NCBI RefSeq assembly: GCF_003852715.1
Contig: NZ_RIAV01000002.1
Span: forward strand, 62,001-126,000
From: Ectobacillus antri
GTDB lineage: Bacteria > Bacillota > Bacilli > Bacillales > Bacillaceae_G
Direction: 5' to 3'
Length of the DNA stretch: 64,000 nucleotides
Under the pieces are notes generated by a model. It was not told the origin of the DNA, made no database searches, and saw only the letters and a list, made by a program, of their open reading frames with translations. Shown in pieces: positions 17,730-60,727 of the stretch. Both the position numbers and the translations under genes were made by a program. Position 1 is the first letter of the stretch, and the number at the start of each line of letters is the position of its first letter.

Positions 17730-17998
17730 CAAATTCATATTTCTAACAAAATATTGAACTGATGATGGAGCACAGTACACAAGAAGCACATGAAAAGAGA
17801 AGAAACGCCTTGGGCTGAAAGCGTTTCTGCATGATGACTTGTCGAATGAACACTCCGGAGGTTTCTCTCTGAACATGAGTAGGAGAAGAACGCGTTCAGG
17901 CGTTACTGAAAAAGTGGAAGCGTAATGCTTCAATTAGGGTGGCACCACGGGTATTAAACTCTCGTCCCTACTGTTACAGTAGGAACGGGAGTTTTTTG
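17730..17998 (+). promoter_or_regulatory. T-box riboswitch, histidine (hisS-aspS leader)
   Basis: The conserved T-box AGGGTGGCACCACGG is at 17936-17950. A terminator hairpin with arms TCCCTACTG and CAGTAGGA, then GGGAGTTTTTT, follows to 17996. In the Stem I 3' side the sequence GAACACTCCGG places a CAC histidine codon at 17851-17853 in the specifier position, agreeing with the downstream hisS. Uncharged tRNA-His should favour read-through into hisS-aspS. Confidence 0.9.
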
Positions 17999-55758: not shown

Positions 55759-55767
55759 CAAATCTTG

Positions 55768-55797
55768 TTGACAGATTACTAGAGAACATTTTATAAT
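55768..55797 (+). promoter_or_regulatory. Promoter of the first T-box leader
   Basis: TTGACA, an 18-base spacer and TATAAT: a strong sigma-A promoter ten bases after the amidohydrolase stop. Confidence 0.8.
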
Positions 55798-55803
55798 GAG
55801 TCC

Positions 55804-56078
55804 CATACTTAAAAAACCTTAATATTTATAAAAGCGATGAAGGGAACATAAGTAGGATTTGCCTCCCTATTCTAGAGAGCTGATGGTTGGTGAAAATCAG
55901 TATATAGGCAAATGTGAATTTCAGTCCCAGAGCATCTTTTTCGTAGTGAAGATACCTCATGAAGGAAAAGCCGGTCATATGATCGTTAACAAAGCAAAGA
56001 GGCGGAGTTTTTCCGCAATTAGGGTGGTACCGCTTATATCCATAAGTCCCTGTTGATACATCAGCAGGGACTTTTTGT
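55804..56078 (+). promoter_or_regulatory. T-box riboswitch 1, phenylalanine specifier
   Basis: Stem I shows the conserved TAGAGAGCTGATGG and TTGGTGAAAATCAG elements. The specifier region GTGAATTTCAGTCCC offers TTT or TTC, both Phe, at 55919-55922. The T-box AGGGTGGTACCGC is at 56021-56033. The terminator stem AGTCCCTGTTGAT/ATCAGCAGGGACT, then TTTTT, is at 56045-56077. No gene follows directly; a second T-box begins 210 bases later. Confidence 0.85.
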
Positions 56079-56257
56079 TTTTAATTTTATATTGTATGTG
56101 ATGAAGGGAATGTATAAGTGCAACAACTTTTTCAACATAACAGTGACAAAAGGACGACAGTGCAAGGATAGCTTGCTCTATGTATAGGGTCTCACAGGGT
56201 ATTAGGTACTGACCATAATAATACAATGCTTGTTCTTTCGCTCATTTAAAAGGGATG

Positions 56258-56285
56258 TTGATTTTTTCGTTTGCACGTATATAGT
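56258..56285 (+). promoter_or_regulatory. Possible separate promoter for the second T-box leader
   Basis: TTGATT, a 16-base spacer and TATAGT lie directly upstream of T-box 2. If active, the second leader can be transcribed independently of the first. Confidence 0.45.
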
Positions 56286-56291
56286 AGTGTG

Positions 56292-56519
56292 TATGATTTC
56301 GTTTGCAGAGAGCCGGTGGAGGGTGCGAACCGGTACAAATGTACACATGAATTTCGCTCCTGGAGCATCTTTTTCGTAGTGAAGCTATTTCATGAAGGGA
56401 AAGACGGTCATGTTGATCGTTAACAAAGAAGAGCGACGGATAATAAAGTGTCCGTAATCAGGGTGGTACCGCGGTTTTATCGTCCCTGCCGATATAATTC
56501 GGCAGGGACGATTTTTTTG
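56292..56519 (+). promoter_or_regulatory. T-box riboswitch 2, phenylalanine specifier
   Basis: Stem I contains GCAGAGAGCCGGTGGAGGGTG. The specifier region ATGAATTTCGCTCC again offers TTT or TTC (Phe) at 56352-56355. The T-box AGGGTGGTACCGCGG is at 56460-56474. A strong terminator ATCGTCCCTGCCGA/TCGGCAGGGACGAT-type stem with seven T follows (56479-56518). A block of about 35 bases around CATCTTTTTCGTAGTGAAG is nearly the same in both leaders. Confidence 0.88.
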
Positions 56520-56586
56520 TTTATGTACAAAGAAAGGCGTGTAGTTTCCGCTTTTTTATAAAAACTGTAGTAAAGGAGAAAACAGC

Positions 56587-57924
56587 ATGAACACAAATCA
56601 AACAGAGTTGCAAAAAAAGCTATTGCCAAGACATATTCGTTTTATGGCACTTGGAGGAGCAATCGGAACAGGGATCTTTAAAGGAACCTCCGAAACAGTG
56701 TCTATTGCTGGGCCAGCTGTAGTATTGTCCTATATATTTGCAGGTTTGCTCCTACTTGTTGTGATGACTGCCATTGCAGAAATGGCAATAGCCTATCCAG
56801 GTACAAATATGAAAGGTTTTATTCATAAGGCTTTTGGAACGCGTGTATCATTTGTTATCGGTTGGTTGTATTGTTTTATGTGGCTTGTTGTTTGTATTAT
56901 TGAGGTTATTGCAGCAGGAAGTTTTTTGCAATATTGGTTTCCATCAATACCGCTATGGACATTAAGTGTGCTATGTGCATCAGGAATTGTCGCAATTAAT
57001 TTCTTAAGTGTTAAGCATTACGGAGAATTCGAATTTTGGTTTGCAGGTATTAAAATCACGATGATTGTGTTGTTTATTCTATTAGGAGCAGGTATTTTAT
57101 TTGATATCATCCCAAGTAACCAAGTTGACTACTTACAAAATTATACGAATGAAGAGTTTTTTCCTAAAGGCTTTAGCGGGGTTGTATCTGCTTTACTCGT
57201 TGTCATCTTTTCTTATGGCGGTTCAGAATTAATCGGTCTTACTTTAAATGAAACAAAAGATGCAGAGAAAGTGTTGCCTAAGGTGGTAAGAGGTGTCATT
57301 GTTAGGATTGTATTATTTTACACGCTACCAATTCTTATTATTTGTGGACTGATTCCGTGGAACCAGCTTAGCGGAGATAGTAGCCCGTTTGTACAAGTAT
57401 TATCAACGGTAGGTTTCTCCTCGGCTGCTCATATCATGAACTTTGTATTAATTACCGCGGTTCTCTCAGCAGCAAATTCTGGCTTATATGGATGTACACG
57501 AATGTTACATTCCTTAGCAATGGAAGGAGAAGCACCTAAGTGGTTTGCTTACGTATCAAAGAAGGGAATTCCTTTATATGGATTAATATGTAGTGCCATT
57601 GTCCTAATTGGCGGCTCTTTTATTGCTTATTTGTCACCAGAACGCATTTTTGGTTATCTTATGGCAATTCCCGGATTTACCGTTTCAATTGTATGGATTA
57701 GCATTTGTTTGGCTCAAGTAAAATTGCGTAAAACGTATGAAAAGCAACCCTCCTTTAAGGTATGGGGATTTCCTTACATCTCTTTATTTACAGCACTTGT
57801 GTTAACTGTTATATGTGTGATTTTTATGCTAAACCCTCAAAATAGAATTAGCATGGGTGTGTGTTTAGGTGTGCTATGCCTATTAATAATTGTTTCCGTA
57901 CTAACCAAACAGAGGTCAAAATAA
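56587..57924 (+). CDS. Amino acid permease, probably phenylalanine/aromatic
   Basis: A 445-residue APC-superfamily (AAT-type) permease with 12 predicted helices. The helix-1 substrate motif is ALGGAIGTGIFKGTS, and conserved blocks are FSYGGSELIGLTLNETKDAEKVLPK and SAANSGLYGCTRMLHSLA (each spread over helix 6 or 8). Sequence alone does not fix the substrate, but both upstream T-boxes read Phe codons, so import of phenylalanine or aromatic amino acids is inferred. GTAAAGGAG precedes the ATG. Confidence 0.88.
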   Translation: MNTNQTELQKKLLPRHIRFMALGGAIGTGIFKGTSETVSIAGPAVVLSYIFAGLLLLVVMTAIAEMAIAYPGTNMKGFIHKAFGTRVSFVIGWLYCFMWLVVCIIEVIAAGSFLQYWFPSIPLWTLSVLCASGIVAINFLSVKHYGEFEFWFAGIKITMIVLFILLGAGILFDIIPSNQVDYLQNYTNEEFFPKGFSGVVSALLVVIFSYGGSELIGLTLNETKDAEKVLPKVVRGVIVRIVLFYTLPILIICGLIPWNQLSGDSSPFVQVLSTVGFSSAAHIMNFVLITAVLSAANSGLYGCTRMLHSLAMEGEAPKWFAYVSKKGIPLYGLICSAIVLIGGSFIAYLSPERIFGYLMAIPGFTVSIVWISICLAQVKLRKTYEKQPSFKVWGFPYISLFTALVLTVICVIFMLNPQNRISMGVCLGVLCLLIIVSVLTKQRSK

Positions 57925-58086: not shown

Positions 58087-59253
58087 ATGAAAAAGATGAG
58101 TTTAGTAATATTGTCTACAACTTTAGCTGTCAGTATAGGACTAGCAGCATGTAGTGGAAATGAAACAGCTTCTGTCAAAAAGGCGTCAACAAATACACCT
58201 AAGCAGATTTTAAATGTAACAGAAAACGCAGAAATTCCTTCAATGGATTCTACTCTGGCAACAGATGCAGTTTCCTTTAGGGTAATGAATAATGTGTTGG
58301 AAGGATTATATCGTTTAGATCAAAATAATAAACCGCAACCGGCAATTGCGAAGTCTGTGAACATTAGTGAAGATAAGAAAACATATACATTCAAGCTTCG
58401 AGAAACAAAGTGGTCGAATGGAGATCCGCTTACTGCGCATGATTTTGTTTATGCATGGAAGCGCGCAGTAGATCCAAGTGTTGCGGCAGAATATGCTTAT
58501 ATTTTGTTTGATGTTAAAAATGCGGAAGAAGTAAATAATAAAAAATTGCCTGTTGATCAATTAGGCGTAAAGGCATTAGATGACTATACGTTCCAAGTAG
58601 AGCTAAAAAATCCTGTTCCTTATTTCCTGGATGTTATTACGTCACCAACGTTTTACCCTCTTAATCAAAAGTTTGTAACACAACAAGGACAGAGGCATGG
58701 TACATTTGAAAACCAGATGATGGGTGCCATAATGGATGCTTGGGTACGTGAACTATACAAACACTCAGATTACTATAAGAAAGCAGAACCAACAATTATC
58801 ATTAATGACTTGTCAGGTTTTGAAATTGCAAAAAACGATAAACCTGTAAAATTTGATGAAGATGCAAAGACATCCAAAGATTTGGGAACTTTTAAAATAG
58901 GTGACAAAGTGGATGTAGGTGGACACATCATTACTCTAAGTAATGCAGTCTATGATGATAGTAAAAAAGAAGAATACGAGGTAACAGTAGCGAAAGTATT
59001 GAAGGTAGACTTCGTGTATCAAAATTCAACGAAAGAAGAACAGTTTATTGATGGTCACCAGTTTGAGATCTATGATGCTGATGGTACGAAGCAAGAAGTA
59101 ACATCTATCGATTTCTTTGGAGAAAATGTACAACCAGGGAAAAATGTATCTGGTTCAGTTCATTTTGGTGTAACTGGTAAAGGGCCTTATGAGATATTTT
59201 TCGCTGATATGGCAACAGACACAAAAGCAAAATGGATAATTGACATTAAATAA
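58087..59253 (+). CDS. Chimeric lipoprotein: OppA N-terminal lobe fused to a DUF4352 domain
   Basis: A 388-residue intact ORF. Residues 1-22 are a lipoprotein signal (lipobox LAAC, Cys 22). Residues about 40-207 match the N-terminal part of oligopeptide-binding OppA (LRETKWSNGDPLTAHDFVYAWKRAVDP, as two blocks; TSPTFYPLNQKFVTQQGQ). After about residue 207 OppA similarity stops. About 55 unassigned residues then lead to a telokin-like DUF4352 domain (about 265-385; FKIGDKVDVGG, FEIYDADGTKQ). The missing OppA C-terminus lies 1.4 kb downstream. The product cannot bind peptides as a normal OppA; it may be a surface-anchored DUF4352 protein or a non-functional fusion. Confidence 0.8.
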   Translation: MKKMSLVILSTTLAVSIGLAACSGNETASVKKASTNTPKQILNVTENAEIPSMDSTLATDAVSFRVMNNVLEGLYRLDQNNKPQPAIAKSVNISEDKKTYTFKLRETKWSNGDPLTAHDFVYAWKRAVDPSVAAEYAYILFDVKNAEEVNNKKLPVDQLGVKALDDYTFQVELKNPVPYFLDVITSPTFYPLNQKFVTQQGQRHGTFENQMMGAIMDAWVRELYKHSDYYKKAEPTIIINDLSGFEIAKNDKPVKFDEDAKTSKDLGTFKIGDKVDVGGHIITLSNAVYDDSKKEEYEVTVAKVLKVDFVYQNSTKEEQFIDGHQFEIYDADGTKQEVTSIDFFGENVQPGKNVSGSVHFGVTGKGPYEIFFADMATDTKAKWIIDIK

Positions 59254-59269
59254 AAGAGAGATACACAGT

Positions 59270-59301
59270 AAGAGTGGTAGCAGATGCTACCACTCTTTTT
59301 T
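59270..59301 (+). terminator. Terminator after the chimeric gene
   Basis: AAGAGTGGTAGCA/TGCTACCACTCTT stem of 13 bases, two-base loop, then TTTTT. Confidence 0.9.
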
Positions 59302-59478
59302 ATGTGAAGTGTATTTTCACAGTTTGAGAGGAAAACTTTAACCCTATGTTGAATTGTTAATGTAATAAAGTGGTATTTTTTAAAAAGTATTAGTCTCCAA
59401 TGGTTTGATGTGCTAATGGGGTGAATGGGTGTATTTTAGTTTAGACGCCTCAACTTTTCGAATGTAGGGAAAAAGTGA

Positions 59479-60114
59479 ATGAAAAAACAGGTGATAAAGG
59501 GTATAATGTTGATTTTGATCTGCAGTGTTAGCACAAGTTGTATATCAGCTGGAGCAGAAAAAAACGAGAGTAAGGATAACGTAGTAAAACAAAAGGGTGT
59601 TGAATGTAAAGAAGGAACAGTCAATAAAAATGAAGGTGGAGTAATAAGTTTTGAGGAATATAGGAAGCTTTTTGAACAACTTAATGATTCGATTAAAGTA
59701 GATGGATACACACTAAAAGCAAGTAGTCTGGGACCGGATGTTACTGCAATTGATAAGGATTTAAGTTTTGGAAAACGTGAATGGATAACAATTGATGGAA
59801 AGATGAATAACACAGAGCCAGAAAGCACGCAGGAAATGCTCTTTTTTGAGAACGCACGTGGTACAAGTCAAATTACAATTACTGTTGGTTATACGGATAA
59901 TTATATAGCTGAAGATTTGTTGATATATCCAACAAACAGAGGTTACGATGAGTTGAATAGGGAGTTGGCAGATAAGACTGATTCAATTGTGGTAGCTTAT
60001 AAGAACATATTAATCTCGGTGCAACATGTTGCGACTGAAAAAGCAGATATGGTAGCTACGCAATCCGCATTGCGAGAAGTCATAAAAAATTTAAAAAAAG
60101 CCCCTAATAACTAA
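59479..60114 (+). CDS. Putative lipoprotein, unknown function
   Basis: A 211-residue secreted protein with an N-terminal signal (KKQVIKGIMLILICSVSTSC). Cys 21 could be lipidated, although Ser at -3 is not the usual lipobox residue. The rest is a mixed alpha/beta domain (about 60-205) with no motif I recognise. AGGGAAAAAGTGA precedes the ATG. It lies, with the DUF4352 part, between the two halves of the broken oppA, so it seems to belong to the inserted segment. Confidence 0.65.
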   Translation: MKKQVIKGIMLILICSVSTSCISAGAEKNESKDNVVKQKGVECKEGTVNKNEGGVISFEEYRKLFEQLNDSIKVDGYTLKASSLGPDVTAIDKDLSFGKREWITIDGKMNNTEPESTQEMLFFENARGTSQITITVGYTDNYIAEDLLIYPTNRGYDELNRELADKTDSIVVAYKNILISVQHVATEKADMVATQSALREVIKNLKKAPNN

Positions 60115-60136
60115 AAAAACCTTTTACTAAATCTAG

Positions 60137-60727
60137 GAAAAAAGTATATTTAAAGATTTTCGTGCCACTGCAGGTACATATAACAAGATAAACATGGCAG
60201 AAGGCAAAAAGTTATGGGAAGAAGCGAAAAAAGAAACGGGAGTAGATAAGGTCACAATTCAGCTGTTGAATTATGATAATGAAGATGCAAAGAAGATTGG
60301 AGAATACTTAAAAGAGCAATTGGAAAAGAACCTAAACGGTCTGACCATTACAATTTCTCAGCAACTATTTGCACAAAAACTTGATCAGGAAAAGAAGATG
60401 GATTATGAGATGTCCTTATCCAGTTGGGGCTACGATTATCCAGATTCTATGACGTTTTTAGATATGTTTGTAACGGACGGTGCATTTAATCAAACTGGAT
60501 ACACCAATCCTACGTATGACCAATTAATTCTGGATGCCAAAGGGAAACTACTGTATGACTTGCCCGCGCGCTGGGAAGCTTTAAAGAAAGCAGAGAAAAT
60601 CTTGCTTGAGGATGCGGCAATTGTACCAATCTATCAAAAAGGAGCTTCATATCTTCTTCGCTCTAATGTAAAAGGATTTTATTACGCATCAGCTCTTGAT
60701 ACGTATAAATACGTATACATTGATTAA
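60137..60727 (+). pseudogene. OppA C-terminal fragment
   Basis: The frame is open from 60137. From KDFRATAGTYNK (about 60152) it follows the last 190 residues or so of oligopeptide-binding OppA: KVTIQLLNYDNEDAKKIGEYL, MSLSSWGYDYPDSMTFLDMF, then VPIYQKGASYLLRSNVKGFY. A normal OppA is about 540 residues. Here the N-terminal 207 residues are in the upstream chimera, and roughly 140 middle residues are missing. There is no signal peptide; an internal ATG at 60194 is the only start. Broken gene. Confidence 0.82.

Follow-up and report, generated by a model that had tools for sequence, protein, structure and literature searches.

Two T-box leaders stand in series ahead of an amino acid permease gene of Ectobacillus antri, and the second of them carries a 169-nt repeat of mobile type within its specifier loop. 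Can a riboswitch take up such an element in the loop that senses its ligand and still function as a sensor? In T-box riboswitches, the anticodon of an uncharged tRNA pairs with the specifier codon of the leader, and the NCCA end of the tRNA pairs with UGGN, holding the antiterminator. How interesting the insertion is hinges on whether the second leader functions. We consider it probable that the two leaders form a tandem tRNA-Phe gate on an aromatic importer, in which the second leader would still be a sensor and the repeat an extra arm.

The analysed stretch of DNA, the window, comprises 64,000 nt of the E. antri genome (G000), and all positions given here refer to it unless a contig is named. 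Our searches covered four genomes of the genus (G000, G001, G002 and G003), where G003 represents a sister species and G002 appears to be Ectobacillus panaciterrae DSM 19096. From the promoter to the permease gene, the locus contains the following features:

55768..55797, plus strand: sigma-A type promoter TTGACA-18-TATAAT, matching the consensus at 12 of 12 positions
55828..56054, plus strand: T-box leader 1, contiguous, with Stem I, Stem II, Stem III and antiterminator (RF00230, 146.2 bits)
55920..55922, plus strand: specifier UUC (Phe) of leader 1 in the context GAA-U-UUC-A (alignment of 36 leaders; GAATTTC at 55916)
56044..56080, plus strand: intrinsic terminator 1, a hairpin with a T-run (terminator prediction)
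56100..56110, plus strand: 5' strand of leader 2 Stem I, with the K-turn strand GATGA and the lower-helix strand AGGGAA (alignment and fold)
56111..56112, plus strand: left target-site copy, TG here and TT in G003, where TA is expected, hence decayed
56113..56281, plus strand: MITE-like repeat of 169 nt with imperfect terminal inverted repeats, predicted to form a single long hairpin
56282..56283, plus strand: right target-site copy TA, the A of which doubles as the first base of the S-turn AGUA
56283..56372, plus strand: remaining Stem I of leader 2, with the S-turn AGTA (56283-56286), AGAGA (56307-56311) and the specifier strand (56349-56366)
56353..56355, plus strand: specifier UUC (Phe) of leader 2 in the context GAA-U-UUC-G (alignment of 36 leaders; GAATTTC at 56349)
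56373..56478, plus strand: Stem II, Stem III and antiterminator of leader 2, with the T-box sequence at 56460 (RF00230)
56479..56520, plus strand: intrinsic terminator 2, a 14-pair stem with a T-run (terminator prediction)
56587..57924, plus strand: APC-superfamily amino acid permease of 445 aa, predicted aromatic importer (PF00324, E 2.4e-99)

Both leaders, on the plus strand ahead of the APC-type permease gene, are covariance matches to the Rfam T-box family RF00230 (gathering score 93). Leader 1 matches at 55828-56054 with 146.2 bits (E 9.6e-33) and leader 2 at 56267-56490 with 115.1 bits (E 9.6e-25); both matches span model positions 1-219, and that of leader 2 has a misplaced 5' end. The T-box sequence AGGGTGGTACCGC occurs at 56021 in leader 1 and at 56460 in leader 2, and each leader contains an antiterminator of the UGGN type with a UGGU bulge and a competing intrinsic terminator, formed by a hairpin and a T-run (56044-56073 in leader 1, 56479-56512 in leader 2). 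These results bear out the earlier note, which had described two T-box leaders in series before the permease, each with a box and a terminator of its own. Its description of both leaders as complete held for leader 1, where the full-length RF00230 alignment contains the K-turn, the S-turn and the specifier of Stem I on one unbroken strand pair. It did not hold in the ordinary sense for leader 2, because the 5' strand of its Stem I is split by the mobile-type repeat at 56113-56281. In the promoter region (55759-55800), one of 42 positions differs in G003. The TGACA and TATAAT of the promoter are also present in G002, where the first base lies beyond the aligned stretch.

The codon presented by each leader was read from an alignment of 36 leaders, namely 32 from 19 orthologous loci with Rfam T-boxes, the two of the window and two of G003. 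All of them contain GAA, one variable base, the codon and then a purine. The variable base is U in 30 leaders, A in four and C in two, and the codon is UUC (Phe) in 28 of the 36 and UAC (Tyr) in the other eight, which are the second leaders of L011, L012, L014, L016, L020 and L074 and both leaders of L019. Because the base before the codon varies among the leaders, the codon in the window is UUC and not UUU. The UUU register was rejected, as a preceding base of U, A or C would mix Phe, Ile and Leu among the orthologues. The earlier note had read GAATTTC, and thereby Phe, in both specifier strands (55916 and 56349) and had named a covariance model as the means of confirming it; indeed, the Rfam match together with the alignment of 36 leaders places UUC in both. 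The six loci with UUC in the first and UAC in the second leader, and thus with tandem T-boxes of unlike specifiers, come from six genomes: two of Gottfriedia acidiceleris, one of Gottfriedia luciferensis and three of Bacillus sp.

Checks of the register elsewhere gave GCU in the alaS leader of the window and UAC in the leader before the presumed prephenate dehydrogenase gene of G003, both as expected. Rfam finds four T-boxes in the window in all, the two permease leaders and two others, which we take to precede hisS-aspS and alaS. The hisS-aspS leader is an exception, since its specifier strand, GAAUGAACACUCC, yields no His codon in the GAA-N-codon register, and this counts against a universal register rule. 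This T-box is located at 17753-17972, and its specifier strand may read in a different frame. The E. antri genome contains three tRNA-Phe genes with the anticodon GAA. The discriminator is A in the two of the three that were read, in agreement with the UGGU that both T-box bulges carry. As expected of a T-box, the specifier matches a tRNA of the host and the amino acid is plausible for the gene. According to the part of PMC7778990 considered here, Phe T-boxes use UUC in 0.99 of cases.

The permease belongs to the AA_permease family (PF00324, E 2.4e-99). Among the best 25 of 27 matching NCBIfam models, no substrate-specific model reached its cut-off, and the PheP and AroP equivalogs scored 296.5 and 291.5 bits, below their cut-offs of 851 and 848. 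By sequence, the nearest protein of solved structure is a lysine-specific permease (9eyd, E 2.1e-67), and this match does not decide the substrate. From 170 related permease loci, 80 were kept, and the 21 of these with at least 75% identity were taken as close orthologues. At the Rfam gathering threshold, two T-boxes were found upstream in 13 of the 21, one in six and none in two (L005 and L006). The other 59 of the 80 loci contained no T-box motif within 1.5 kb by a strict pattern, and for one of these, L023, the Rfam scan was also without a T-box. A paralogous locus in the same genome (G000:C13:10500-14500, L146) encodes a 51% identical permease behind two UAC (Tyr) T-boxes, and the 53% identical permease of G002 likewise follows tandem UAC leaders. 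The presence of UUC and UAC leaders before related permeases suggests that the permease is an importer of aromatic amino acids. The earlier proposal of a phenylalanine or aromatic importer thus gained support in its aromatic part, from the UAC leaders at the orthologues and at the 51% identical paralogue, but not from any substrate model at cut-off.

How would such a pair of leaders control the importer? Transcription from the promoter at 55768 would have to clear two serial T-box attenuators to reach the permease gene. When tRNA-Phe is uncharged, its anticodon GAA would pair with the specifier UUC in each leader, its elbow would stack on the tip of Stem I, and its free NCCA end would pair with UGGU and hold the antiterminator. 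When tRNA-Phe is charged, either terminator could stop transcription, so that the pair would act as a two-step (AND-type) gate on the putative aromatic importer.

In leader 2, the 169-nt repeat interrupts the 5' strand of Stem I at a point within the specifier loop that faces the codon. The strand GATGAAGGGAA at 56100-56110 is a direct repeat of the strand in leader 1, and the S-turn AGTA (56283-56286) is parted from it by the repeat. Rfam sets the 5' end of leader 2 at 56267. We rejected this end, since a leader starting there would have no K-turn strand, and the strand found 167 nt further upstream agrees with leader 1 and with the leaders of G003 and G002. The fit at 56267 is forced, with five GAUGA K-turn positions deleted and two of the four lower-helix pairs non-standard. 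In the alignment, the insertion block is present in the window and in G003 and is missing from G002, where GGAATACAGTAG runs unbroken; it was seen in two of the four genus genomes searched (E. antri and G003). By parsimony, the insertion is placed after the split from E. panaciterrae and before the split of the two sister species.

Sequences matching the two ends of the block occur elsewhere in the E. antri genome, and one of these belongs to a full copy of 182 nt. This copy as query gave at least 37 matches in G000 and at least 15 in G003, partial ones included, one short match in G002 and none in G001; 40 candidates were scored per genome, so that the counts for the repeat family are lower bounds. 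Two other copies as queries found only short end matches in G002. Searching by pattern for the ends of the repeat yielded scattered hits, which we set aside. The MITE-like family, with a length of about 185 nt and TA duplication, is present in numbers in G000 and G003 only and is nearly absent from G001 and G002. Among 17 copies read, 15 begin with TATATAAGT and 14 end with ACTTATATA; the left end of the L184 copy, at a contig end, lies outside this reading. The 16 copies with a whole row measure 181-187 nt, and some of them are orthologous pairs of the two species.

The copy at G000:C8:45885 has TA on both sides, and G003 contains an empty site there with a single TA, which indicates, from this one copy, that the family duplicates TA on insertion. 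A second G000 copy looked for in G003 is common to both genomes. By the TA rule, the copy in leader 2 extends from 56113 to 56281 between TG, a decayed TA, and TA. The inserted repeat is thus MITE-like: it is short, it has terminal inverted repeats and dispersed copies, and another copy shows the target-site duplication. The insert alone folds better than shuffled sequences (z -2.29), with 3 of 200 shuffles as good. Around 20 other copies (of 52 matches in G000 and G003), with up to 1.5 kb on each side, no Rfam match was found at the gathering threshold, so the copies sampled show no tendency to land in structured leaders.

In the history that we propose, a TA-inserting MITE-like repeat would have entered leader 2 in the common lineage of E. 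antri and its sister species, landing in the specifier loop on its 5' strand, and the target TA would have supplied the A that still completes the S-turn. Once transcribed, the repeat could form a self-contained hairpin, an extra helical arm at the specifier loop of leader 2. Such a hairpin would bring the two halves of the Stem I strand together, and leader 2 would stay a tRNA-Phe sensor. We lean towards this reading, by which a transposable element came to lie in a ligand-sensing loop without destroying the riboswitch and leader 2 became a tRNA-Phe sensor with a MITE-derived third helix.

The lower and upper Stem I helices of leader 2 can still form across the repeat in the predicted fold. 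When folded without constraints, the insert-bearing Stem I domain has a minimum-energy structure in which GGGA pairs with UCCU as the lower helix (56106-56109 with 56358-56361; pair probabilities of 0.59 to 0.66), the insert forms a hairpin that closes at 56111-56283, and 56287-56294 pairs with 56341-56348 as the upper helix. Once the insert is taken out and a single TA left in place, the same lower and upper helices are predicted. At the place below the lower helix that the T-box model leaves open as a K-turn, both permease leaders of the window are predicted to pair GAUG with CAUC. The arrangement expected for G003, which also bears the insert, is 1.0 kcal/mol less stable than the minimum, and imposing just the lower helix on the insert-free leader of G002 costs 3.0 kcal/mol, so that folding constitutes weak evidence.

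Could the insertion instead have crippled leader 2? The tRNA-Phe would then no longer dock, and leader 2 would terminate transcription at a fixed rate, leaving one responsive T-box, leader 1, followed by a constitutive damper. The predicted fold is compatible with such a loss, as the insert opposite the codon makes a junction where the anticodon must dock, and for G003 a structure other than the expected one has the lowest energy. Moreover, the Rfam score of leader 2 ranks third among the four T-boxes of the window, and its 5' strand was missed. We regard a crippled leader 2 as unlikely, though it is the most serious of the alternatives, in view of the divergence between the window and G003.

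In this comparison, the insert was taken as 56112-56284, the four-fold sites of the permease gene and of the M20 gene served as the reference, and significance was assessed by the Fisher test. Leader 2 changed at 4 of 194 positions downstream of the insert (56285-56478) and at none of 15 in its 5' strand (56097-56111), whereas the insert changed at 11 of 116 positions and lost a further 57 nt in G003. Leader 1 changed at 15 of 223 positions, terminator 2 at 2 of 42, and the four-fold sites at 29 of 198 in the permease gene and 12 of 179 in the M20 gene. The divergence of leader 2 was lower than that of the insert (p 0.005), of leader 1 (p 0.032) and of the four-fold sites (permease p 5e-6; M20 p 0.039; pooled p 1e-4). 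The insert, with 11/116 against 41/377, did not differ from the pooled four-fold sites (p 0.73), nor did leader 1 (p 0.11). Leader 2 as a whole thus appears to be under constraint, and the insert does not. Furthermore, the specifier, S-turn, K-turn strand, AGAGA and T-box sequences of leader 2 are identical in the two species. Both the identity of these elements and the lower divergence than that of leader 1 (4/194 versus 15/223) argue against a crippled leader 2.

The Stem I part of leader 2 alone changed at 3 of 102 positions, which gave p 0.057 against the insert, p 0.0013 against the four-fold sites of the permease gene, p 0.27 against those of the M20 gene and p 0.011 against both pooled. 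For Stem I alone, constraint is therefore suggestive only, and selection on leader 2 might act mainly on the antiterminator side; the unclear selection on Stem I, with p 0.27 against the M20 four-fold sites, is also what a crippled sensor could leave behind. In our judgement, leader 2 most likely still works.

Two further explanations assign a function to the insert itself. The repeat might have been co-opted, with its hairpin arm tuning leader 2 by contact or delay, for instance by slower assembly of Stem I or by touching the bound tRNA. The insert persisted through a speciation, and a review considers, in the part seen here, that the unexplained insertions found in every T-box domain may make new tRNA contacts (PMC7583486). 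However, the insert could not be told apart from the four-fold sites in its divergence and is 57 nt shorter in G003, and this looks like drift, which makes co-option improbable in our view. It is more improbable still that the insert carries a promoter from which leader 2 would also be transcribed without its 5' strand, acting as an independent terminator: two promoter-like sites with 9 of 12 matches lie at the right end of the insert (56258-56285 and 56270-56297), but the region holds six promoter-like sites including the real one against a shuffle mean of 2.6 (sd 1.4), so that some 9-of-12 sites are expected by chance, and transcripts starting there would be without the K-turn strand.

A tRNA-Phe sensor with a mobile-type repeat in its loop can be compared with several known systems. 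The locus resembles the transcriptional T-box of RF00230 in Stems I-III, the antiterminator with AGGGTGGTACCGC, the terminator and the UUC specifier, and departs from it in the 169-nt mobile-type repeat in the specifier-loop 5' strand of leader 2. Tandem T-boxes have been described before the trpE operon in Bacillus methanolicus and other Bacillales (PMC4342826). As far as the portion of that paper considered here goes, they are likewise two T-boxes in series in one transcription unit. The present pair, in contrast, precedes a transporter gene and not a biosynthetic operon, it reads Phe and not Trp, and some of its orthologues mix Phe and Tyr. In the Bacillus cereus group, a Phe T-box was reported before an NSS-family transporter (Wels et al., 2008; PMC2494555), and the same work proposed that T-box specificity had switched there from Tyr to Phe. 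In the sections consulted, that case is similar in placing a Phe T-box on an amino acid transporter, whereas here the transporter is of the APC type and the leaders are in tandem. T-box regulons are treated in PMC3766115, in the part considered here, and a survey of contiguous riboswitches does not mention Phe or phenylalanine in its main text, to the extent covered here (PMC12452182). The tandem Phe T-box pair is thus a known type of arrangement, and the novelty is the repeat within the sensing loop.

Bacterial MITEs are similarly short, with terminal inverted repeats and many copies, according to the consulted part of a review (PMC10969869), which also mentions potential T-box motifs in BOX elements; unlike those MITEs, the repeat described here sits in the sensing domain of a complete T-box. 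Among the titles and the beginnings of abstracts searched, we found no transposable element inside the sensing domain of a T-box or another riboswitch, although such a case may still exist in print. Insertions in every T-box domain, as well as tandem T-boxes, are listed among the open questions of the field in the part of PMC7583486 considered here. If leader 2 indeed remained a tRNA-Phe sensor, the locus would provide a concrete origin for one unexplained T-box insertion, and the non-coding strand of the specifier loop would be permissive to insertion. As the source of the insertion can be named, its arrival placed in a lineage and an insert-free orthologue is at hand, the effect of the insertion is directly testable. 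The UUC and UAC leaders of the orthologous permeases also offer a natural series for studying how tandem signals combine and which substrate the transporter takes.

Further T-boxes and the neighbouring genes gave several side observations. Tandem UAC T-boxes are also present at G000:C10 (L145) and at G003:C1:3099164-3099634 (L151), the latter before what is presumably a DAHP synthase/chorismate mutase gene. A third UAC T-box of G003 stands before a gene that we take to encode prephenate dehydrogenase. The M20 gene was found in the flanks of none of the 21 orthologous loci (flanks of up to 6 kb, shorter at contig ends), although it adjoins the permease gene in G003, and the gene neighbourhood gave no lead. 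In the window, an OppA-type substrate-binding gene is apparently split across 58087-60727: its N-terminal part continues without a change of frame as a DUF4352 domain (58087-59253) and is followed by a 211-aa ORF without a Pfam match (59479-60114) and then by the OppA-type C-terminal part (60194-60727).
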